From the NCBI GenBank assembly GCA_012862575.1, contig BLSF01000016.1, forward strand, positions 124,001 to 188,000: a DNA stretch of 64,000 nucleotides, in the 5' to 3' direction. This document shows positions 4,958-19,957 of the stretch, piece by piece. The position numbers and the translations under genes were made by a program. The notes beneath the pieces are model-generated. The model did no database searches, was not told the DNA's origin, and saw only the letters and a program-made list of their open reading frames with translations. The DNA is from Parietichytrium sp. I65-24A. Taxonomy: Eukaryota > Sar > Bigyra > Thraustochytrida > Thraustochytriidae. Positions within the stretch are counted from its first letter, which is position 1, and every line of letters starts with the position of its first letter.

Positions 4958-7900
4958 CTACCATGTCGCGCTCCAGCCGCGATAATGCTGGGCGAGATTT
5001 TCGTGGGAAGTGGCCTGCTTGATAAGCTCTGAAACCTGGTCCTTGACCGGCAGAGGCAGGTCCGGGTCGTGTTCGTTCAAAAAGTCTTTGCCCGTGAGCT
5101 TCGCTTTAACGCGATTTATGACCTCCACCGCTCGCTTGTTGAGGGTCTCATTCCGCGAAGATTGTTCAGCCATATCAACATTATTTAAACTCGAGCTTCG
5201 GGGACTCCTTCGGTGAGAGCTCGACGTAGAACGCCCATCTGCGCTTCCGTGGTCTGCGCTCTGCGGCACTTGCAGCTCCTTCTCTAGAACTACATCTAGA
5301 GAAGATCCTCGGACGGACCCATTGGAAGGAGATGACGATCGTCTCTCATCTGTTGGCTTTCGGCCCTCTTGTGGCTGAAGAATGCGCCACGACACGAGAG
5401 GGTCGTACACAAACGCCTGCAAAATTGTCAGAATCGACTCGTGGTTGTCTCGCAGGACGCGCATCACAGCACGACAAGTGTGGCGGAAATTACCGTCAAT
5501 CCCGCTGGCCTCCATTGCGTTGATCAGCATCCGCGTCAACCGGAATGGTACCTTTTCAGGAAATGCGTCGCGGTGCATTGTCACCTCGAAGCAATCGCCA
5601 AAGTCAATGTGCAAGACGCGCCCTGAAGACCGCTCGAGCATCAGATTTGAAGGATGGCGGTCACCAAGCCCCAGGATATAACCCACCATCGACATGGCCG
5701 CGAGCGACCGCGTGTATGTGATCCGGCGGTCCACCCAAACCTCAGAGTTTGGACTCTTCAACCAAAGTATCTTGGCCAGGTCTCTGCCAGAAGTCTGGTC
5801 TAGCGCGTATTCGAATGCCTCAACCTTTTGCATCACCGTGCACGAGTCATACTCCGGAGCCATGTCACTCATCAGCTTGCTCTCTATCAGAACAGGGATC
5901 TGGCGCGACTCGCGATAGGACTTGATAAGCTGGTTCAAGGTGTCGCATGACGGAACCCATTCAACGATTCCCGAAGTGCTCGACAGAGGGACTACGGCGT
6001 ACCTCTGGATCTCCAGTCTCAGTTTGCTCGTTGTTGCGTCCTGTTGAAGGAGGCCTCTGACGAGCCCGAAGAGCTGCATCACACGTTCGTCCATACGTAG
6101 GTCTTCGTTGCCCTTAAGCAAAAATGTATGGGCAAAACCATCACTTCCTTGCATAGTCAATACGCGCGGTCGTTGCTTGGATGGAATGATGCGGACAGAA
6201 GGCTCAAATCCTGCGATTCGAATGACTGGAGCACCGGCCTGGTATGTCCCGGGAACCACCAAAAGCATGTCGTCAGATTCCATCAGATGCGATACATTTC
6301 GCAACTCGAGGTGTTTGCTTGATTTCAGCTGCTTTTTGATCTGGCGGAAGACGTTGTAGTAGCGATCCCATGCTTGGTCTAGAAAGGTGATGCTTTCCTT
6401 GTCTGAATTAAGGTATTTGTACAGCCATTCCGCAGCCTCCTGCAGATCGAGCCCATACTTTTGCACACAGGCTACCTCGTGAGGGGTTTCTGGTCCCCAT
6501 TCCATCTCCACGTGCAGTGGCTTTAAAATCTGTATCATTTGCTCCACATTTCGCTCTGCGGTGAAATAGTGTCGGGATGCCTCCTCGAGCCGATTATACC
6601 ATTTCTCGTGCCAAAGAACGGCGACTCGAATAAGTTCTCGAGAGACGATCAGTGCCTCGTCGACAAGGTCTGGGAAAGAGTCTCGCATTTGTCGCATCAC
6701 GTGTTTGGCAGCATTTGATCGTGCGACATTGTCAGATTTGGATGCGACAGTAAGGGGATAGATGAGTTTTTGCGGATGTGCAATGCCAATCCGTATCAGC
6801 AGGTCACACACCAAGTCATCCTCACGCTTCAGCCGCGCGATGAGCTGAGGAATGACTGCCAACCAGGACTCTATCTCAAGACTATTAAATCCCTCCTTCA
6901 TTGCGGCGCCGACCTCGTCCACTTCAAAGTGCGAAAACCAAAGCGAAAGAAGCCGCAAGATATCTTGCAACACGTCCACATTATTCCTCCTTCCTAAGGC
7001 AATTGATCGAAAGAATGCCGCAATCGCTGGAACGACGCAGGGATGGAGATCTTTTGGTGCTTTTCGGCCCACGCCAGAACCTTTTGGAGAGATTGTGGAG
7101 ACGTTGAGACCGAGGGAGGGATATCCCGAGTCGTGCTTTGAGCCTTGGCCTTTGCCATGGAGAGGGCTGGGCGTGTCACGAGGGCTTTTGCTTATGTGTG
7201 TTGGAGATGGCGCTTTGGGCATTGTAACCTCTTCCGAAGCTCTTACGTTGGCAAGTGCCCAAGCGTGCCATGCCTTATAGGAGGAAGGGTCGAGCTTTGT
7301 GGCTTCTTTGTAGAACCGTAGCACTTGGTCAAATGTCTTTTCCTTGTTCCTAGCCATGGCCGTTTGTGCCGCGATTTGGCTCTCCTCAAGAGAAAACTTC
7401 GAGGATAACGATGAAACGTGGGAAGGGCTGTGCAATGGCCGGGTTCCCCGTTCGATTGTTGCAGTAATGGACATGCGAGCACCTCTTGGGCGAAGCGGAG
7501 GGCTCCCGAGCAGCACGGACTCACTGGGTTCCACGATTGGGCGCTCCGAATGCTCTCCTGTGTCATTTTGAGGGCTGCCAAGACCATCTCCATCTTTTTT
7601 CGTCGCGTTGACGCTTTCGTCGTGACCGTCCGCCTCGCCGGGTTTGTCGTCAGTTGCGGAAGCGAGTACCTGGTCGTCGTGAACTGCTAGCAGCCAGACA
7701 CCAAGTTTGCAATCACACTGCACCAGGAGGCGCCTGAGCTTACTCATCTGACGCAAGTCGATATCGAGGGCGTGCACATCGGTCACGCAATATTCTTCCA
7801 AGTCCTCCTCTTCCTCTTCGATACCCTTTGGAGCAGCGTTATTTTCGCGATCCTCCATATCACGACGTAGCTTTTCAAGCTTGGACAAATCCAGTGTGTT

Positions 7901-10900
7901 GACTGGCTTCAGGTGCTCCTGCTCTTCGTCATCTTCCTCCTCCTGAAACACCATTCTGCCCGGCTGCATGCGAAGTTCTTCGGCTAAATTGAATTCGCTT
8001 CCACCGGAGTCGGTCGGAGAGTTAAACCAACTTGGTAACCGAGCTTGACTAAAGGAATGTTGCCCGGTCTTTACAGAGTCTATACTCTGACGGAGCACGT
8101 TACGTAGTCGCTTCAACCTGTGGATAGCTTCAAACCGGTCTCCGACTGCCCAAATGTACTTGATGTACGCAAATGCGACGCGGGGCTTGACCTTGAACCG
8201 TTTCTTCCCAAGGCGATCAGAGCCGGACGAGAAACCACGAGGGACAGCAGTATATAGCAAGTCTTCTTGGTTAAGGTGAGTCGCAACTCCATTTGCCACT
8301 GGCTGAACTTGATGCAAGCTCACAATGCTCTTGACACCTTCATTAAAAGCGAAAAAGCTTCTGTTGTGTGTTTCTGACCCGATTCCCAAACGGATGAGAG
8401 CTTGTAATGAGAGATTGAGCAAGTTCTCCTTCCGGGCGACTTTTGAAAAGTTGAGCCACGTTTCCAGGTCATCGATTGGGTCAATCACGATGCTTCGGTA
8501 AGCCAGTATCGGCATGAGAACAGATGCCGTGTTTTGCACCCCCTGCAGTCTGCTGGACCACACCCGGCGCAAACGATTAAGGTACAATTTTGCCTCCTCT
8601 GTATTGTCTTCGCTCTGGCTAAGGCGCTTGTACTCTAAGATCTCCTGCAGCTCCACCATGTGTTGGACTTCAATCAAACGCGGGTATGCTCGACTGTAGC
8701 TCTCAACAACCAAAGAAGATAACTCTTTGTCCAGGATTGCATAAGATTTGTCGATGTGACGCTGTGCAACGTCAAGCTGTTGATGCTGCAGCGCATAAAT
8801 TGCTTTCAGAAAATTCCCATCTGTACGCTCCTCGTTCCAAAATGACGAGTACTTTGACATCTCCTCCCATTTAGCAAGAGCGAACGCAGCATAACCTCCT
8901 AAAGTGGCCATAGATTGCGCGTAGCGACGCAAATTCGACTCGTGCTGCTCTTCAGCCTCTCGCTCCTCCAAAGCTGGATCCTTCCGGTTGCCGTCCGTGC
9001 TTTGTCGGCGCTTTCGCCTCGACTCCTCCGAGCTCGCGTCAAGCTCTGGCCGCATCACGATCGGACCGCCAAGTCCATTGTAATAGTCCCGGAGCTCAGC
9101 AGCAGCTGAGTCCAAAACGTTATTGGGAGCACCTGAACTGAGCCCAGGAAGCGCTCCTTTAGAAAGAGTCCATACCGGTAAGACCGTTGAGTTCATCCGA
9201 TCTAGATTCGCCCGCTCTCCACCAAATAGATTGACGAGTTCTCGAGCGCCTCCTGTTAGCTCGCTAGACGACGAGGATGCATTGAGTCGCCCCCGACCAC
9301 TTGCAATCGTTGTCAGTTGGGCTCTCCGGTCTTTTCCGAGCGAGGCAATGTGCGGCCCACGGGAGAAATAATAGTCTTCGTCGTCTGTGGGATACGACAT
9401 CACGGAGGAGGCGTGCGATCGATTTCGAATGAGAACTCCTACAGGCTGGGTTACGGTTCCCTGAGTCTCGTTCCCTTCGTCCATGGACCATCGCCGATCC
9501 CCGAACGCCGGCTCGTGAGCGTCACTCTGTTGGTCCTGGCTCTCCTGAAATCGCGGAAGGAACGGAGTCTCGTCACTATTTGTTTCTCTGCGCTTGTGGG
9601 TACTCTTCCTCCCAATCTCGACGTCCTGGTTTACTAGCTCGGCCCACTTATCATCAAGCAAAGACAATACTGTGTGCCAACCTCCAACACGATTAAGGCA
9701 TCTCAGACGACCGATATTTACATTCTGCTGCTCCAAGGTGAGCCAGGGCGCACCGCCATTGCTCAAGCTTTCGGCGTGGCCTGAATATCGCTGCTTCCTT
9801 TCCAGCTCAAGTGACTTTTGTTCATAGGCTTGCAGTGCTTCGTCCCAAGCCTGCAGCCTTTCATACCACTGCGGCTGAACGTCCTTGCTTTCCGCGAACT
9901 TTGACCTTGCATAGAGCACCACTCCCGCCGCGGCTTCCCTTTGTTCGAGATTGTTGTGAATCGTGATCAGTTTCTCTATGCAATCCTCCGGCACAATTCG
10001 GAATTCGAGCTCTTTGAATCTCAATGCCTTGGCATTGGCCTGACACTTGAGTGCAATTTCACTAAGCCCGTGTATATCGATTGGAAGTGGCTTGTTGTCA
10101 TGCTCCATAAACTCGGCCAAATTAAGCAAACTTTGGAGCAGATCCTTTGGAATTTTTGGTGCCTTCAAGGACAGCTCAAGCTGCGACACCAAGTTGTCCC
10201 TGGCATTTTGTTCTAGAGTGTCCCAGCAAGAGAGAAAAGCTGCATTGAACAGCTCCCTTGCCACGGGCTCGCAAACCTGGGCGAGCGGGTAACACGACTG
10301 AAGAGCAGATTTCGGCGATTGCCGCAAGAGCTGCAACGAAAATCTCCTCATCCACTCCATCCACTCCAACTCGGTGCTGATCTGGGCAATGTGCCAAGTT
10401 GCTTTGAGAAGATTGACATCCGTCGTTGAAGTTTGCTGATGCACATTACCAGGATCGTCTTCGCGAACACCGCTCAGATCGTTCAAAAATGGGTCTGACT
10501 CTTCTACAAACTCATCCGTAAACCAGGACGGCTTGTCAAGACACTGTCCCTTCAAGACTATTCTTACAAGTCGAAAGTACAACTCGATCAACTTTCGGTC
10601 GTCGGCAGGCTCTGGCCTATCATCCGAGGCGGAATTGCTTGCTGGCGTGATTAGATTATCCGCCGCACTCAAGAGCACCTTCTCAACAACGGGAGCAAAC
10701 ACTGAGAATTCCTCTTCTAGCCTGTAAACAAGAACGATAAGAAAGTCAACAAGCACCATGAGCATTTCATATTCGTCTTGGACATTTCGAAACGTTCCGA
10801 GTCGGTCTTTGTACACGCGCGATCCCTGCACATTTTGGCTGTGACTGAGAAGAGCGGAAAGGCCAAGAGGGTCACCATCGGTCGGTGCGGACGTCTCATG

Positions 10901-13900
10901 AGCCTGCCGTTTTTGCTTCTCGTCAGCAGGCACTTGACTGATGCGCAAAGATGCACAATCGTCAAGGGCGTGCAGGATTGGGTGAATGATGAGAGTAGCG
11001 TACTCGCTAATATCACAGGTGGTGGCGATTCGTGACAGTGTTTGGATCGCCAGACCGCGGATGCTCGTTGGTATTAGGGTGCTGTCCACGAGAGTCGCAA
11101 TGGTGGGCACCACTAAATACAGGTGCTCGTCCAAGGCAGCTCCGAGCCGACCAATCACTGCCAACACGTACTTTGAATCGCTGGATCGTAATTCATCTCT
11201 TTCACTATGCAGCACACCGAGCAAATCTTCCAAAAGCTTCGCGACGTGCGGTCGCAGCATGAAAGAATTGAGGGTGCGAACCATGGTAAGGACTAGGCCG
11301 AGGGTGTCATGCCTCGGCACAATATTCCAGAGGTCGTGGACAAGCTCAAACAACGCTGGGACGTAGGGGTAGATGTCCAGCTTGACGATTTCAACAAGCT
11401 TTCCTACTTCGAGCAACTGAGAAGTACGCGACTCTCGAGTCAGCTGGCCCGACTTTGCTGAACTTTGTATGACGTGCAGCAAGCGAGGAATTACAATTGG
11501 CAAGTACAAAGGGCGGTCACGGCCCAGCGTTCGGAAAATCTTGTTGATTGCCTCAACAGCAGTTTTATGATGAACCGCCATGGAGCTGTCCGCCAGGACT
11601 CTAGCCAGAGCCGTCACTGCGACACGAGGGTAGTACTCGGAAGACTTCTTCACGAAAGAAGGCAGAATTGCGCTCGCCGGAGTGGCAAGGTATGACTCAA
11701 TTTCGGATTGGTCCAGGCCTTGCTGTTCTTGGACGAGGGTACTTGCAGCACTTGCAGCAATAGCAGCTGCGCCCTCAAACACCTGCCCTTGTCCACCATT
11801 CGGGTTCGGGAGAACCACACGCAGTTGACTTGAGGATGCTGTGGATCGTTCCGTCTTCCTTCCTGAGGGTACAGGCACCGAGACAGTTCCTTTTCTGTCA
11901 CGGTAATGTGCCCCCCCTGCATCGGCTGTGGAGACAGCCCTCTCCCGCTCCCTATCTTGGGAGTTGAGCTGCGCCGCCTGGACACCTTGTGCCCCGTAAC
12001 TTGCGCCCCCGTGGCTCGGAAAAACCCTCTGGGCACCGCCATTGTTGGAGGCCTTGGGGGATGGCTGGAGCGTGTACAGAGTGCTCCTTCGTCGCGTTTG
12101 AGTTCGGGCTTGAGAAAGCACATGGATCTGATGGGCGATCTCTCGAATGGAAGATTTGCGCCGCGAGTTACTCCGTCCGACCGGCTTGATTGTACCTCTT
12201 CGTATGGAGTCCTTACTCGACTGGCTCTTGCGGAACGACGGAGCTGCTGTGGCCGCCCTTTTATGCTTCCCAATGTTGATTGAGGGCAGGCCCAATGAGC
12301 TAGTCGCTGTGGTGGCGACATTGACCCGTCCAGACATGGTCCGCTTCATTGTCCGATTATCACTAGTCAATTCATTTTGCACAGTGTCAATGACAGCTGG
12401 GGGAAGGCGAATTGTGTGCATGTGAACTGGTTGGTTTGCTCCAAGTGAGGACACTGGTGGCGGCGGCAGAACATCTACTTTTAAGGGCTCCACCGCTGCC
12501 TGGTTGAGATTAGGGATTGGGCTGCCAGTGAATCTGAATGGATCGCGTAGCTCCAGCTCCTTGGAGGCGTCCACAACGCCGCTAGGACTTGCGGATTGCG
12601 GTGATCCTGTCGTGTTTTGAGAATCGTATATGTCTGATTTGACCATATACGAAGTTCGACGCGTGTCTCCGCCCCAGAGAGCACCCTTTCGGCCAGACCT
12701 CCAAGCCTCTTGCCGTTTGTTTGCCAGTGCAGAAATGTCCCCAGAAGAGAGTGGGGCAGCGTCAGAAAGCATGGTGGACCGGTCCTGGCCCGGACTTTGT
12801 TGTAAATTCATGCCGATTACATCAAAGTCTACCGAGCTCCCATTTGCGAACGGGTCACCGGTTCTGAACACCAAGTCACCATCTTCTACGTCGTCCTCAG
12901 AGCCTTCCTCATCGCGTGAGGAGGCCAACGAATCAGAGTCATCATCAGATTCGCCGGTATGCGTGTAAGCCCGGAGGACTGCGTGTTTGAGATCTCGCTC
13001 GTCCCCAAAATCAAATATAGCCTGCGTTTCAGCACCAACATCATTTGCTTCTGGGCCTTGCATATTCACCAATAATTGTTGATTGCGGTACAAGTACGGG
13101 TCCAGAGCACCGAGGACCCCAAACGTAATCATCGCCTGCTTTCGCAACACCTCAGAACCAGGCTGGACCATGATCCCCAAGATATGATCTAGCAGGCGGT
13201 GAAAGCAGAAATACGGCCAGATCGGCATAGCAGCGCTACTGGCAAGGGTTGCCAGAGTATCTAGAGCAACTCGCCGCTTGATTACGGTTGCCGATGACTT
13301 GTCGTCAAGGATGTCCACGATGATTGGCAGCACCTTTCCCAGTAATGGGGTCAAAGTTTGCTCATCCCCGACGCGCGCCACTTCCCCCAGTGTCGCCAAC
13401 ATCGCTGTGGCAACACCTCGGCGCACGAAATTTATCTTGGGAAGCAAAGTGTTTATGATGGGCGAAATATATGGCCGTGATAGAGATGTCCCTACGGAAC
13501 GGACCAAAACACCAAGCAGAACCACGGATTCCTCGCGCTGTTTCGAATCTACCGCGAAATTGAGTTCATTCAAAAGCCTGAGCAGTACATTGTTCATGTT
13601 GGGCATCACTTGCGCTGACTTCAGCGTCGCAAACTTTCCGACGGCCTCCACTGCCATTGCGCGCACGTAAAAGCTCTGATCGTTTGTTAAAGTCAATATC
13701 GACCTAACGCTTTCGCTATTCTTCAGCAAAACAGAAGAAAAGTGAGTGCTCAATTCATCGATCACGAATCGCCTAATAGCGACGTCATCGTCCACCATCG
13801 CGACCATTATGAGCTGCTCAAGAATGTGCTGGACAGCCTCTGTATCTTCCTCCGCGCTAGCTTGGTTCCCGGAGTTTGCGAAATGGCGAGCTAATGTCAC

Positions 13901-16261
13901 ACAGCACGCGCGTGTGGCCTCCAAACGCACTCGGGACTCTGGACTGTCGAGGTGGCGCAAAACGACCGCGCACACCAGCGGGATCAGATTGATCCCTTTG
14001 AAACTGAAATTCGAGAATGTTCTCAGCGCCAAGACTTGAAGGGAGCTATCTGGATCGCCTTCATCGTACTGCTCGCGCTCCGCTTTGGAGCTAGTTGAAG
14101 GCGGGGCGGGAGGACCATTGACTCCGGCAATCCAGGTCGACGCCTTTCCTTTTAAATCCCTCCAGAGTTCACGGACGGAGGAATTGCTTCCATCCGAAGC
14201 TCTTGGATTCATACTATCCGCACGAACAGCACGGGTGGCACCAGTTGCGTCGTCAGGGCCGGTACTGATGGTGCCTTGAAGTTGACGGTTATTCCTGCCC
14301 AGCCAAGAGCGATCGACAGATGCGCCATGACTTGCCACCTTCTCCAAGTGCATAAATTCCTTTACAGTTCGTTTCATCTGCCTCTCCTGCTCGGCAAGCT
14401 GAAAGTCGCGATTTTTTTTACCGCCTCTAACTGCTGAGACAGACAAGATGTGAACGAGCTCTTGAATCAGCCTACCTTGTATCTTTGCGATATCAGATGT
14501 AATACACTTCCGAAGAACTGCAAGCGTGGACACCAGCGATTCGCTGAGCCCGCCGTTGAAAATAAGCGGGATCAGCTCGCAAAGGCTCGACGAGCCACCC
14601 AATGCGGCCACAACATCCTGTGTTTGTATAATCATTCGCATGCAGTCTAAGGCTTCTTTACAAAAGGGCCACTTTGGGGTCGCCGTCAAACCATCCTTGA
14701 TTAAGGCAAAGATCTGGGGAATAAAGTTTTGAAAGGTCTGCCGCGAGTTGCTATCAAGTGCGCTAAGCTGGCCCAGTGCCAGGAACGCTGCGCTGCGTGA
14801 CTGAACCCGTGCCAGTCTATTACCACTGCCTGCGCCAGGACGCTTACCAAATTTCATGGAGGGTGATGTCGGGCAGGACAGATCCACGCTCGAGCTCCCA
14901 GAATGTATATTGGAGATATCACCACCTGCTGAAGACACCATACCCCCATCAGAAGTTGCGTCATCAGCACCTGCGTCACCGAAACCGTAAGCTCCTTCCT
15001 GGAACGCGGAGTCGAATCCTACTCGAGTCGAGCTAGACGATGCTGACTGCATGAGGTGGTCCAGAGCGAGAGAGTAAAAGCTGGTAAAAATTGGAACGCT
15101 CGGGCAATGAAGGGCGAGGCGGGGTAAAATCATCATAACAGCCTCGCGGATAAGCGGGTCGCCATGGTGACGAATCTCTTGCCTCCATACACAGCCCTGA
15201 AAAATTTCTTCGAAACGGTACTGAATGAACTCTCCAGTGCATTCTCCAATCAGTTCGTACAATCCGAGCAACGCTCCGTGGACGTAATTACTTCCTTTGT
15301 AAGTGAACGGGGTATTCGAGTCGTTTGATCCGCCAATATACGCTCCTGGGGGAAGGTTGGGCTCAGAATGAGGGTTTGAGGTGCTTCTGCCTCCCCCTCC
15401 GCCTCCTATGAATGGTATCAAGTGCATAGCCCGACGGGCGCTCCCACTGTTTGTCGGACTGGTTGCCAATAGAGATGATTTTGACTTGGAAAACCGACGT
15501 CGGTTGAGCGGCGAGGTCTTTGTTTTTGCGGTAGGGGTCCCAAGAGCGGGGAACTCATCTCTCGCGCTGCTGTAAATGTTGTTGTACAATCTATTTTTCT
15601 GTCTTGACTCACGTTGGGCAACCACGCGCAAAGCGTGCCGTAGCGCCACCGCGGCGGCAACTCGAATGGTTGGTTTGCCGTCGCATAACGCCGAGTAAAT
15701 GTGCTTGAAGAATTCATCCGAGTGGATGTTGAACAGAGTTGGAGCGTTGATCGCCAGCTCTCGCAATATGAGGACTGCTGCGTAACGTTTCATCTCTGGC
15801 GGGTTCTTTTCCGTGAGCCAGTTGATCCCCCTTTTGATTTCGAATTCGACAAAAACGGATGTCGCTGCCGTTGGCCCACTCGCCAAACGTCCCAGTACAT
15901 GAGCTGCCGTTTCTAAGGTTTTCATTCCGCTGGAGTCCACAGCAGATAACTTTCCTGTTGCTTGCTGCGCAATAATGATTTGAAGCTGATTAACAAATTG
16001 TACAGTCTTCTTCACGATCTCGTCGTTCGGAATTGAGATGATCTCCACGATGAGGATCGTGCACGCTAGGCGATCACTCGCATTCGAGTTGTTGGCCCAT
16101 TTCTCGATACGGTCTATGATCGAGTTGAGAACCTTGCTAAAGCTTTCATGAGAACGTCCTCGCGCCTCCTGCTCCAGATACCTCCGAATCTTTTTGGCGG
16201 AGGCAATTCTTTCCTCGTTATCCTTACTTCGAAGACCCTGAGCGTGCGTCCATAATGGCAT
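4958..16261 (-). CDS. TOR: TOR (target of rapamycin) PI3K-related protein kinase, giant form
   Basis: One uninterrupted 3767-residue frame from the ATG at 16261 (the codon before it is TTG). TOR is the central growth-control Ser/Thr kinase of TORC1/TORC2. The first 2000 or so residues are HEAT-type helical repeats, then the FAT region. The FRB domain is near residues 3205-3310 (RELIRVAVLWHEKWYNRLEE, QAWDRYYNVF). The kinase domain has FLLKGNEDLRMDERVMQLF, catalytic loop GLGDRHPSNLML and HIDFGD near 3540-3560, and the FATC tail ends QATSHENLAQHYRGWSATW. Human and yeast TORs are about 2470-2550 residues; the extra length comes from low-complexity Ser/Gly/acidic insertions, e.g. around residues 240-330, 1060-1450 and 2750-2990. 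FATC lacks the usual cysteine pair. No intron is needed. Confidence 0.97.
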   Translation of the reverse strand: MPLWTHAQGLRSKDNEERIASAKKIRRYLEQEARGRSHESFSKVLNSIIDRIEKWANNSNASDRLACTILIVEIISIPNDEIVKKTVQFVNQLQIIIAQQATGKLSAVDSSGMKTLETAAHVLGRLASGPTAATSVFVEFEIKRGINWLTEKNPPEMKRYAAVLILRELAINAPTLFNIHSDEFFKHIYSALCDGKPTIRVAAAVALRHALRVVAQRESRQKNRLYNNIYSSARDEFPALGTPTAKTKTSPLNRRRFSKSKSSLLATSPTNSGSARRAMHLIPFIGGGGGGRSTSNPHSEPNLPPGAYIGGSNDSNTPFTYKGSNYVHGALLGLYELIGECTGEFIQYRFEEIFQGCVWRQEIRHHGDPLIREAVMMILPRLALHCPSVPIFTSFYSLALDHLMQSASSSSTRVGFDSAFQEGAYGFGDAGADDATSDGGMVSSAGGDISNIHSGSSSVDLSCPTSPSMKFGKRPGAGSGNRLARVQSRSAAFLALGQLSALDSNSRQTFQNFIPQIFALIKDGLTATPKWPFCKEALDCMRMIIQTQDVVAALGGSSSLCELIPLIFNGGLSESLVSTLAVLRKCITSDIAKIQGRLIQELVHILSVSAVRGGKKNRDFQLAEQERQMKRTVKEFMHLEKVASHGASVDRSWLGRNNRQLQGTISTGPDDATGATRAVRADSMNPRASDGSNSSVRELWRDLKGKASTWIAGVNGPPAPPSTSSKAEREQYDEGDPDSSLQVLALRTFSNFSFKGINLIPLVCAVVLRHLDSPESRVRLEATRACCVTLARHFANSGNQASAEEDTEAVQHILEQLIMVAMVDDDVAIRRFVIDELSTHFSSVLLKNSESVRSILTLTNDQSFYVRAMAVEAVGKFATLKSAQVMPNMNNVLLRLLNELNFAVDSKQREESVVLLGVLVRSVGTSLSRPYISPIINTLLPKINFVRRGVATAMLATLGEVARVGDEQTLTPLLGKVLPIIVDILDDKSSATVIKRRVALDTLATLASSAAMPIWPYFCFHRLLDHILGIMVQPGSEVLRKQAMITFGVLGALDPYLYRNQQLLVNMQGPEANDVGAETQAIFDFGDERDLKHAVLRAYTHTGESDDDSDSLASSRDEEGSEDDVEDGDLVFRTGDPFANGSSVDFDVIGMNLQQSPGQDRSTMLSDAAPLSSGDISALANKRQEAWRSGRKGALWGGDTRRTSYMVKSDIYDSQNTTGSPQSASPSGVVDASKELELRDPFRFTGSPIPNLNQAAVEPLKVDVLPPPPVSSLGANQPVHMHTIRLPPAVIDTVQNELTSDNRTMKRTMSGRVNVATTATSSLGLPSINIGKHKRAATAAPSFRKSQSSKDSIRRGTIKPVGRSNSRRKSSIREIAHQIHVLSQARTQTRRRSTLYTLQPSPKASNNGGAQRVFPSHGGASYGAQGVQAAQLNSQDRERERAVSTADAGGAHYRDRKGTVSVPVPSGRKTERSTASSSQLRVVLPNPNGGQGQVFEGAAAIAASAASTLVQEQQGLDQSEIESYLATPASAILPSFVKKSSEYYPRVAVTALARVLADSSMAVHHKTAVEAINKIFRTLGRDRPLYLPIVIPRLLHVIQSSAKSGQLTRESRTSQLLEVGKLVEIVKLDIYPYVPALFELVHDLWNIVPRHDTLGLVLTMVRTLNSFMLRPHVAKLLEDLLGVLHSERDELRSSDSKYVLAVIGRLGAALDEHLYLVVPTIATLVDSTLIPTSIRGLAIQTLSRIATTCDISEYATLIIHPILHALDDCASLRISQVPADEKQKRQAHETSAPTDGDPLGLSALLSHSQNVQGSRVYKDRLGTFRNVQDEYEMLMVLVDFLIVLVYRLEEEFSVFAPVVEKVLLSAADNLITPASNSASDDRPEPADDRKLIELYFRLVRIVLKGQCLDKPSWFTDEFVEESDPFLNDLSGVREDDPGNVHQQTSTTDVNLLKATWHIAQISTELEWMEWMRRFSLQLLRQSPKSALQSCYPLAQVCEPVARELFNAAFLSCWDTLEQNARDNLVSQLELSLKAPKIPKDLLQSLLNLAEFMEHDNKPLPIDIHGLSEIALKCQANAKALRFKELEFRIVPEDCIEKLITIHNNLEQREAAAGVVLYARSKFAESKDVQPQWYERLQAWDEALQAYEQKSLELERKQRYSGHAESLSNGGAPWLTLEQQNVNIGRLRCLNRVGGWHTVLSLLDDKWAELVNQDVEIGRKSTHKRRETNSDETPFLPRFQESQDQQSDAHEPAFGDRRWSMDEGNETQGTVTQPVGVLIRNRSHASSVMSYPTDDEDYYFSRGPHIASLGKDRRAQLTTIASGRGRLNASSSSSELTGGARELVNLFGGERANLDRMNSTVLPVWTLSKGALPGLSSGAPNNVLDSAAAELRDYYNGLGGPIVMRPELDASSEESRRKRRQSTDGNRKDPALEEREAEEQHESNLRRYAQSMATLGGYAAFALAKWEEMSKYSSFWNEERTDGNFLKAIYALQHQQLDVAQRHIDKSYAILDKELSSLVVESYSRAYPRLIEVQHMVELQEILEYKRLSQSEDNTEEAKLYLNRLRRVWSSRLQGVQNTASVLMPILAYRSIVIDPIDDLETWLNFSKVARKENLLNLSLQALIRLGIGSETHNRSFFAFNEGVKSIVSLHQVQPVANGVATHLNQEDLLYTAVPRGFSSGSDRLGKKRFKVKPRVAFAYIKYIWAVGDRFEAIHRLKRLRNVLRQSIDSVKTGQHSFSQARLPSWFNSPTDSGGSEFNLAEELRMQPGRMVFQEEEDDEEQEHLKPVNTLDLSKLEKLRRDMEDRENNAAPKGIEEEEEDLEEYCVTDVHALDIDLRQMSKLRRLLVQCDCKLGVWLLAVHDDQVLASATDDKPGEADGHDESVNATKKDGDGLGSPQNDTGEHSERPIVEPSESVLLGSPPLRPRGARMSITATIERGTRPLHSPSHVSSLSSKFSLEESQIAAQTAMARNKEKTFDQVLRFYKEATKLDPSSYKAWHAWALANVRASEEVTMPKAPSPTHISKSPRDTPSPLHGKGQGSKHDSGYPSLGLNVSTISPKGSGVGRKAPKDLHPCVVPAIAAFFRSIALGRRNNVDVLQDILRLLSLWFSHFEVDEVGAAMKEGFNSLEIESWLAVIPQLIARLKREDDLVCDLLIRIGIAHPQKLIYPLTVASKSDNVARSNAAKHVMRQMRDSFPDLVDEALIVSRELIRVAVLWHEKWYNRLEEASRHYFTAERNVEQMIQILKPLHVEMEWGPETPHEVACVQKYGLDLQEAAEWLYKYLNSDKESITFLDQAWDRYYNVFRQIKKQLKSSKHLELRNVSHLMESDDMLLVVPGTYQAGAPVIRIAGFEPSVRIIPSKQRPRVLTMQGSDGFAHTFLLKGNEDLRMDERVMQLFGLVRGLLQQDATTSKLRLEIQRYAVVPLSSTSGIVEWVPSCDTLNQLIKSYRESRQIPVLIESKLMSDMAPEYDSCTVMQKVEAFEYALDQTSGRDLAKILWLKSPNSEVWVDRRITYTRSLAAMSMVGYILGLGDRHPSNLMLERSSGRVLHIDFGDCFEVTMHRDAFPEKVPFRLTRMLINAMEASGIDGNFRHTCRAVMRVLRDNHESILTILQAFVYDPLVSWRILQPQEGRKPTDERRSSSPSNGSVRGSSLDVVLEKELQVPQSADHGSADGRSTSSSHRRSPRSSSLNNVDMAEQSSRNETLNKRAVEVINRVKAKLTGKDFLNEHDPDLPLPVKDQVSELIKQATSHENLAQHYRGWSATW

Positions 16262-17148
16262 CAACCCTCGGCCGCGTCAAAATCCCCATCATTGTGCATG
16301 CGAGATGCGTCATCGAGACAAAATAGTACGGCCGCGCCAAGTTCAATCGTCAAAACAAGTTAATTCTACAACCGCCTGAAAGGAATGCACTCAATCAAGA
16401 GAGGAAGCGATGATGAAAGAATCACACAATAGATCATTCATTCGATCATCGATCATTCATCACTCATCACTCATATCCCCAACGCCAGCCGCCACGCCAC
16501 GCCCTCTGCCACCACTCACCTCCAGCGACTTTTGCAAAGTATCTTGCGGCTTGGCGCCGTTGTGCAGCCTGTCGTAAAGCGAGCTGTACATTTTGCACCA
16601 AGCCCTTGCCGGACCCGCTGCTCTCCGCGTTCCCAGCAGATCTTCCGCCGGTCCTTCGGTTCCGCCAACCTAACAGGATCCGCAGCCCTGCAGCCGCTCG
16701 CGACCAGGCCCGTCCGCGAGCGTCGAGTTCTTTGTTCCTCTGTTCCTCTGTTCCTCTCTTCCTCTCTTCCCGGGCTGCCCTCCGAGTACGCTCTGCGCTC
16801 TGCTCTGCTCTGCGCACACGAGCAACAACCGCCTCGCCATGCCTCGCCCCGCTAGCCCCACTCCACTGTAGCGGAGGATACGGCGAACCTTCGGTCGTTC
16901 CCTGCGGGCGAGCGCAGGATGTTCGCGATGAGCTCGTTGTTCGCGAAGCAATCGTTGCTCACGAAGCGCTCCTTGTTCGCTGCGACGTGCCGAGCCTGAC
17001 GATAGTGCTCGCGCTTAGGTTTGCGCGTAGGAAGTGCTGGCTGGCCCGCACAGTGCAGGTGGAGCTAGCTGTGCGAAGGCTATTGAGGCAGACGCAAGGA
17101 GACGGAACACGCGATTTGCAGCGACGAAGAATACAAGCTCTTGGCAAG
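16262..17148. other. Divergent spacer between TOR and TOM5-like gene
   Basis: No supported gene. It contains the TOR upstream region and the TOM5-like upstream region. TCATTCATCA words cluster at 16435-16475, and short dispersed GTTCGCGA/GAAGCG words lie at 16920-16985. Confidence 0.55.
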
Positions 17149-18426: not shown

Positions 18427-19128
18427 ATGCGCGCTCGGTCAGTGGCGCTGTGCGCCGTGGCTTCAGTGGCGCTCCTGTCGTCGGTGGCGTTGGGGGATGA
18501 GTTTGACGAGTTTGAGGTGGACCTGAGCGGGGATGCGGACGTTGACATGGACGGGGACGACCTGGACGGCTTTGGCGGTGAGCTGAGCGAGGGCGCGGTG
18601 GACAAGGCGGCGTCGGCGTTCTCGTCACAGGCGTCAGGATTCGCGGGTCCGCGGCTGCTGGTGGAGATCTGTACCGGGTGAGGGTACGGGAACAACTACC
18701 GGGCTTTGAAGCAGTATTTGGAGAATAACTATGCCCAGTTGAGAGGGCAAATCGCAGGCGATAACTACCCAGCGCCTCTGCTAGTTCAGTACCTTGCCAT
18801 GGTGGCCGGGTATCTGCAGGTTGGCGGAATCGCATTTCTTTTCCTCGGGGCGCCTGTGTTCCAGTCGCTGGGATATGCCCAGCCGCCGGAATGGTACAAT
18901 CAGCTACGAGAGAACCAGCTGCAAGTGTTTATGGGCCTGTTTCTCATGAGCTCAGTTGCTCAAAACATGGTTCAGACTGGGGCGTTCGAGCTAACGCTTG
19001 ATGGCAAAAAGGTCTTTTCAAAGTTGAAGACTGGTCGGTTGCCTACCATTCAGGAGATCGAGAGAATTCTGGACGAGGCTGGTGTAGACAAATCCTCCGG
19101 TGGTGGATTTGAGGACCGCAAGTTTTAA
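18427..19128 (+). CDS. SELENOT: Selenoprotein T (in-frame TGA read as selenocysteine)
   Basis: The frame opens at 18427, meets TGA at 18679-18681 and continues without another stop to TAA at 19126-19128, giving 233 residues with Sec at position 85. The protein has a signal peptide (residues 1-23), an acidic linker (residues 24-50), then the redox motif C-T-G-U followed by GYGNNYRALKQYL. Downstream segments match SelT closely: NYPAPLLVQYL, a hydrophobic segment VGGIAFLFLGAPVF, ENQLQVFMGLFLMSSVAQNM, TGAFELTLDGKKVFSKL, GRLPTIQEIERILDEAG. Human SelT has CVSU and is 195 residues; the acidic linker explains the extra length. SelT is an ER thioredoxin-like oxidoreductase. A SECIS hairpin about 190 nt after the stop supports recoding. 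A conventional gene finder would split this into two fragments. Confidence 0.95.
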
Positions 19129-19957
19129 GCTCCTCTGCCTTGCTCTCTTTTGAACCAAACGCCTCGACATCATCCCGCTAGTGCTTTTTCTTGGAGGAGT
19201 CAGCGTGATTTCCACAGATCGATGCACCTGGAGACAGACATTGCATACTTATATATATCTACGTGGTTTCAATTTTTTGGGGTTCGACCGCTGGAAGAAT
19301 AATTTTGGAGTGTTCCGTGAATGAATGCTGGTGGGTCTAAAGTTTGAGCGCCCAATCGGGCGCGGACCACTTTGCATGACGAAGGTGGTTTACTGTGAGA
19401 GAAATACTTGAATAGGCTTGCGACCCAAAATCTGCTTCAAAGCCGGCCGTTCCAGTATTTTTAGCACTTGAGAATTTTGCAGCTTGTGTTTGCCAGCTGA
19501 TCTGCCAAGATCATCGCTGTAAAGCAGACTCTGCGAGTTTCTTTGACAGGTAAATCATGTGAATGCCCTAAAACTCTTTCTCCACCGTTGTCACCGGAGA
19601 GAAGATACCAATCAAAATAATTTGCCAACTAAGAAATATTGTCATGATGATTCTGGCTTCTCTTCAGACCCTGCGCTCCACGCTGGTTCACCGCGTGCTT
19701 CCAAAGCAAACTCGCCTGTTCGGAGACTTGGAAGTCACTGTTAGGCAGAGAAAAATTTCCCCCGTGCTGCTATTGCTGCTGTTGCCCTTAGCGACTAGTG
19801 AAGTCACTAGTCCTGCACAGCCACTGGAGTGCGTGCACATTGTGCACATGGCGCTGGGGAAGGAAGGAAGGCATTGCAAGTTGCTTCGCGTCTCTTGAGC
19901 GAGAAGAACGAGTGGCGAAAGTGAGCGAGAAGGTGTGTCTTGACAGCGCTGACAAGA
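19129..19957. other. SelT 3' flank and ZNHIT6-like upstream region
   Basis: Apart from the SECIS hairpin, no gene is supported. An ATG-started frame at 19644-19898 begins like a mitochondrial presequence but matches nothing I know. Confidence 0.55.
19317..19385 (+). promoter_or_regulatory. SECIS element (selenocysteine insertion signal), form 2-like
   Basis: The 5' core ATGA is at 19321-19324 and the 3' core TGA at 19377-19379. Between them, TGCTGGTGGGTCT pairs with GGACCACTTTGCA as a roughly 13-bp helix with a few G-U pairs and mismatches. The unpaired AAA is at 19339-19341, 14 nt after ATGA. Above it sits a small perfect hairpin: GCGCCC (19348-19353), loop AATC, GGGCGC (19358-19363), as in form 2 SECIS elements. 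The lower helix is not obvious by eye. The position, about 190 nt past the SelT stop codon, is typical for eukaryotic SECIS elements bound by SBP2. Confidence 0.82.

Follow-up and report, generated by a model that had tools for sequence, protein, structure and literature searches.

A selenoprotein T gene with an in-frame TGA codon and a SECIS-like element in the thraustochytrid Parietichytrium sp. I65-24A

The consensus of the eukaryotic SECIS, which lies in the 3'UTR, comprises an ATGA / AA(A) / GA core with a strand of 9–14 nt, an apical mini-hairpin and (T)GA, and the usual redox motif of selenoprotein T (SelT) is CVSU. Further features of SelT in other organisms, against which we judge the likeness of the gene described here, are those that we take to be typical of the family. 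According to the available part of PMC7539508, the Sec form of SELENOT, like that of three other selenoproteins, occurs in over half of the 36 algal genomes considered. The available part of PMC4561486 describes SPS2 as scattered across the Stramenopiles, and fusions of an NADH dehydrogenase-like protein to SPS as frequent in bacteria and sporadic in protists; a selenocysteine tRNA is noted for Hyphochytrium in the available part of PMC5795050. In searches of open-licence literature, none of the titles listed concerned selenoproteins of Labyrinthulomycetes, thraustochytrids, Aurantiochytrium or Schizochytrium. Here we describe a SelT-like gene in a stretch of 64,000 nucleotides from Parietichytrium sp. 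I65-24A (hereafter the window), together with the genes elsewhere in the genome that bear upon the reading of its in-frame TGA.

An initial annotation of this DNA had recognized a SelT-family gene, with a TGA at the Sec position of a C-x-x-U motif and homology that continues beyond that codon, and all three claims were borne out. The only in-frame TGA of the open reading frame (context EIC-T-G-U-GYG) falls within a CTGU motif (residues 82–85) at the start of the fold, and past it the frame stays open for 148 codons up to the TAA (Table 1). In a six-frame search of the genome, the match to PF10262 (Rdx) spans the TGA (41.1 bits, with '1 TGA' inside the match). Against the read-through protein, the same model scores 47.5 bits (cut-off 22.6) and NCBIfam TIGR02174 CXXU_selWTH scores 63.4 bits (cut-off 34.2), both matches again crossing the TGA. 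Residues 78–216 carry Rdx model positions 3–73 of 74, and this 139-residue spread of a 74-position model, taken with the hydrophobic insert, is the SelT layout; a long hydrophobic insert between the Rdx halves is what, in our understanding, sets SelT apart from SelW and SelH. In common with SelT (SELENOT, PF10262, TIGR02174), the protein has the CxxU motif, an N-terminal signal-like segment (its peak 19-residue hydropathy windows begin at residues 4–6) and the long hydrophobic insert in the Rdx fold, and its C-terminal GAFE..L..G..FSKL..G.LP block is also as in SelT. It differs from the usual SelT in reading CTGU at the redox motif and, from SelT elsewhere, in the 35-residue acidic stretch that follows the signal peptide.

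Table 1. Coordinates of the SelT-like gene and its 3'UTR elements in the window
Feature	Position	Strand	Remarks
Selenoprotein T-like ORF	18427..19128	+	ATG to TAA; 233 residues with TGA as Sec; intron unnecessary
Probable signal peptide	18427..18495	+	hydrophobic N-terminus, residues about 1–23
Acidic stretch after signal peptide	18496..18600	+	D or E at 15 of 35 residues
In-frame TGA, predicted Sec codon	18679..18681	+	codon 85, second redox position of CTGU
Hydrophobic segment	18793..18849	+	residues about 123–141, by hydropathy; within the long insert splitting the Rdx fold
TAA termination codon	19126..19128	+	ends the SelT ORF
SECIS-like element, form 2	19321..19379	+	ATGA (19321–19324), 14-nt strand, AAA (19339–19341), apical hairpin (19348–19363), partner strand, TGA (19377–19379)
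Competing hairpin	19364..19391	+	10 bp; would sequester the SECIS 3' strand (predicted fold)

A PDB search with the SelT-like protein returned two matches, neither of them a SelT. In an alignment to PDB 2ljk (C17orf37) that is weak and local (8.7 bits), the TGA lies opposite the second Cys of CxxC, and similarity runs on immediately 3' of the codon. The whole genome holds two Rdx matches, namely the SelT locus with its TGA and a protein on contig C50 that has no TGA and carries CCRC; BLAST between the two proteins gave an alignment that is not meaningful (E 0.25). Viral contigs scanned for SelT relatives yielded five pattern matches and no relatives.

The initial annotation had also reported a form 2-like SECIS about 190 nt after the stop. 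The distance is accurate, as the ATGA of the element starts 193 nt 3' of the TAA, a spacing that suits a SECIS, and the description of its parts stands: the element shares with eukaryotic form 2 SECIS the ATGA, the AAA, the apical mini-hairpin, the (T)GA and the location in the 3'UTR. Of 123 candidates returned by a hand-written core descriptor from both strands of the 64-kb window, it agrees with the core and ranks first with a score of 17.4, a rank that is mildly favored in that the descriptor was written after the element had been viewed. The runner-up (16928–17000) scored 17.0, and scores of 17.4 or more arose 0.17 times per dinucleotide-shuffled window (30 shuffles). At five other loci in the genome, the best descriptor scores were 20.4 (the GPx gene L017), 15.1 (the Sep15-like gene L018), 14.7 (the GPx gene L014), 11.7 (L001) and 11.2 (L005, discussed below); scores near 15 are unspecific, because L018, whose match shows no Sec codon, reaches 15.1. 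Rfam SECIS_1 (RF00031) had no match in the whole genome or at the SelT locus, and likewise none in 14 controls. Its miss at the SelT locus is uninformative, because the GPx elements of this genome, including the clearer one at L017, were missed too. MAFFT alignments of three SECIS elements, and then of the two from GPx genes, left the 3' strands out of register.

With regard to folding, the SECIS shape is favored locally but not, in the predictions, at longer flanks. Taken alone, positions 19319–19382 have a SECIS-shaped minimum-energy fold of −24.0 kcal/mol, a stability matched by 8 of 1000 shuffles. When flanks of 10, 20, 40, 70 and 100 nt are included, the SECIS-shaped fold exceeds the minimum by 3.7, 0.4, 6.1, 8.8 and 6.5 kcal/mol, respectively, and within 19129–19500 a slightly different set of SECIS pairs exceeds it by 9.2 kcal/mol. 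The predicted fold of the 75-nt stretch 19318–19392 contains the competing hairpin and not the SECIS shape, and the fold with this hairpin is also the energetically preferred prediction when the flank measures 40, 70 or 100 nt. Over the whole 3'UTR stretch (19129–19500), stability is no better than that of shuffles (33 of 100 as good). A stronger predicted competing hairpin at longer flanks is unlike a typical form 2 SECIS. Under the same flank test, the L017 GPx element sits at the predicted minimum for every flank, and the L014 GPx element exceeds it by 1–3 kcal/mol with flanks of up to 70 nt and by 7.4 kcal/mol with 100 nt. We consider the competing fold a caveat and not a refutation, because neither the non-Watson-Crick quartet nor protein binding enters into the energy model.

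The prevalence of the competing hairpin in longer predicted folds is what favors the best of the alternative explanations, in which the Sec codon is real and the true SECIS is some other element of the 3'UTR. However, of the 12 best of the 123 candidates, none but that at 19321 lies on the + strand within the SelT 3'UTR, and we regard a different SECIS as very unlikely. It would be just as much of a long shot to read the modeled folds as a two-state switch, with the hairpin masking the 3' strand of the SECIS until SBP2 or the selenium status shifts the balance; if this were true, RNA refolding would regulate SelT recoding.

The initial annotation had asserted Sec use in nuclear genes, while pointing to a lack of Sec machinery as evidence that would count against it. 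A search of the genome (42.5 Mb, 172 contigs) found the machinery genes present, with PSTK represented by a weak candidate. The tRNA-Sec scores 74.3 bits (cut-off 47, which is also passed by 5 of 14 control genomes) and is found by ARAGORN as well, with anticodon TCA. SepSecS was found at 577 bits (cut-off 225), and SBP2 through a protein that has SBP2 (E 5e-20) as its sole PDB match with E no higher than 0.1. Against PDB, the eEFSec locus (L008/L012) scores 443 bits with eEFSec, 182 with archaeal SelB, 112 with bacterial SelB and 108 with the best EF-Tu, and it matches the eukaryote-specific Pfam domain euk_SelB_III at 99 bits. Against the selB model it scores 201.8, short of the 242.25 cut-off; we nevertheless assign it to eEFSec on the strength of its PDB match and of the Pfam domains specific to eukaryotes. 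Locus L006, which topped the selB search, was rejected as eEFSec, being a mitochondrial-type EF-Tu.

The only SPS match in the genome is a SelD domain (276 bits, cut-off 125) at locus L005 (G000:C58:271667-272608, minus strand), where it sits fused behind a pyridine nucleotide-disulphide oxidoreductase. Judging by the motif that we take to mark it, the catalytic site seems to be Cys and not Sec. In having an N-terminal oxidoreductase joined to an SPS domain in a protist that uses Sec, L005 is like the protist NADH dehydrogenase-like-SPS systems in the available part of PMC4561486, and it differs from them in that its top NCBIfam model is 'fusion_not_SelD' (453 of 700, below cut-off). The fused SPS is presumed to make selenophosphate. 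The PSTK candidate (L029) is a 343-aa open frame whose best NCBIfam match, selen_PSTK_euk (TIGR03575), is weak (60 bits, cut-off 382). A KTI12 match (L028) was considered as PSTK and set aside as a polynucleotide kinase-phosphatase-like protein.

Given this machinery, little remains in favor of the possibility that the TGA lies in an intron, or that the gene is a decaying pseudogene, with no Sec inserted. A donor-like G/GTGAGG does overlap the TGA, and 41 GT-AG removals of 40–300 nt would lose the codon with the frame preserved. Splicing would, however, remove sequence bordering the redox motif, whereas the weak similarity to 2ljk continues straight past the TGA; moreover, the long open frame that follows, the SECIS-like element and the Sec machinery all speak against an intron or a pseudogene, and we give this explanation almost no weight.

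Three selenoprotein families were searched in the genome. There are four GPx matches, and TGA occupies the catalytic position in two of them: in L014 it aligns opposite the Cys of PDB 2v1m, and in L017 the position was read from the translation. SECIS-like elements lie 100 and 87 nt past the stops of L014 and L017, respectively. The L017 element is strong and nearly textbook, with none of 1000 shuffles folding as well; the L014 element is weak, as each shuffled window yields a score this high 2.1 times and 325 of 1000 shuffles attain an equally good fold. The single Sep15/SelM match, a Sep15-like protein (L018, G000:C25:388278-388472, minus strand), reads DFN at what we take to be the usual Cys-x-Sec site, and in the predicted exon structure its redox motif seems to have been lost. 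These results support Sec use in this genome and the presence of at least three TGA-containing selenoprotein genes among the three families searched. The open frames of SPS, eEFSec and the L014 GPx terminate in TGA, and therefore TGA is not simply reassigned. That the SelT TGA is a stop with a real short product, or is subject to general read-through, or is decoded as some other residue is scarcely credible, since three genes from two families have TGA where Sec belongs, other open frames terminate in TGA and the genome has Sec machinery.

Having demonstrated the gene, the position of its TGA, the SECIS-like element and the machinery genes, we hold it to be nearly certain that this is a functional nuclear SelT gene whose UGA at codon 85 is recoded to Sec by means of the 3'UTR SECIS, SBP2 and eEFSec. 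We infer that, inside the cell, the 3'UTR stem-loop would recruit SBP2 and eEFSec bearing Sec-tRNA(Sec), the ribosome would read the UGA as selenocysteine, and translation would terminate at the TAA. The product would be a CxxU oxidoreductase of the thioredoxin-like type that probably resides in the ER, where it may have a redox role.

Several other features of the genome came to light. On the minus strand of the window, positions 4958-16264 hold an uninterrupted frame for a TOR-like kinase (FAT, FRB, PI3/4-kinase and FATC) of 3768 residues, which is long for a TOR. The longer match to cox1 (L030/L031, on the AT-rich and presumably mitochondrial G000:C141) spans 368 codons with no TTA and 23 TTG, and a second, overlapping match of 322 codons has no TTA and one TAG. 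TTA is a stop in the Thraustochytrium mitochondrial code, and the codon use of cox1 suggests a code of this kind, a hint of thraustochytrid affinity. EF-1 alpha is without what we take to be the opisthokont insertion. A search of the genome for PUFA synthase (TIGR02813) gave 13 matches, none above cut-off, a result that is somewhat unexpected for a typical thraustochytrid; an open frame at G000:C66:8562-22499, given as 5583 residues, matches a single stretch of the PfaA model four times, and these matches are probably ketosynthase domains of a giant polyketide-synthase-like gene.

The finding is correct but ordinary, as few selenoproteins are more widespread in algae than Sec-type SelT (PMC7539508, available part): the gene is a correctly interpreted member of a well-known kind and does not change the general picture. 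It adds a selenoprotein record for thraustochytrids, and it is relevant to genome annotation, where automatic gene calling tends to cut such proteins short at the TGA.
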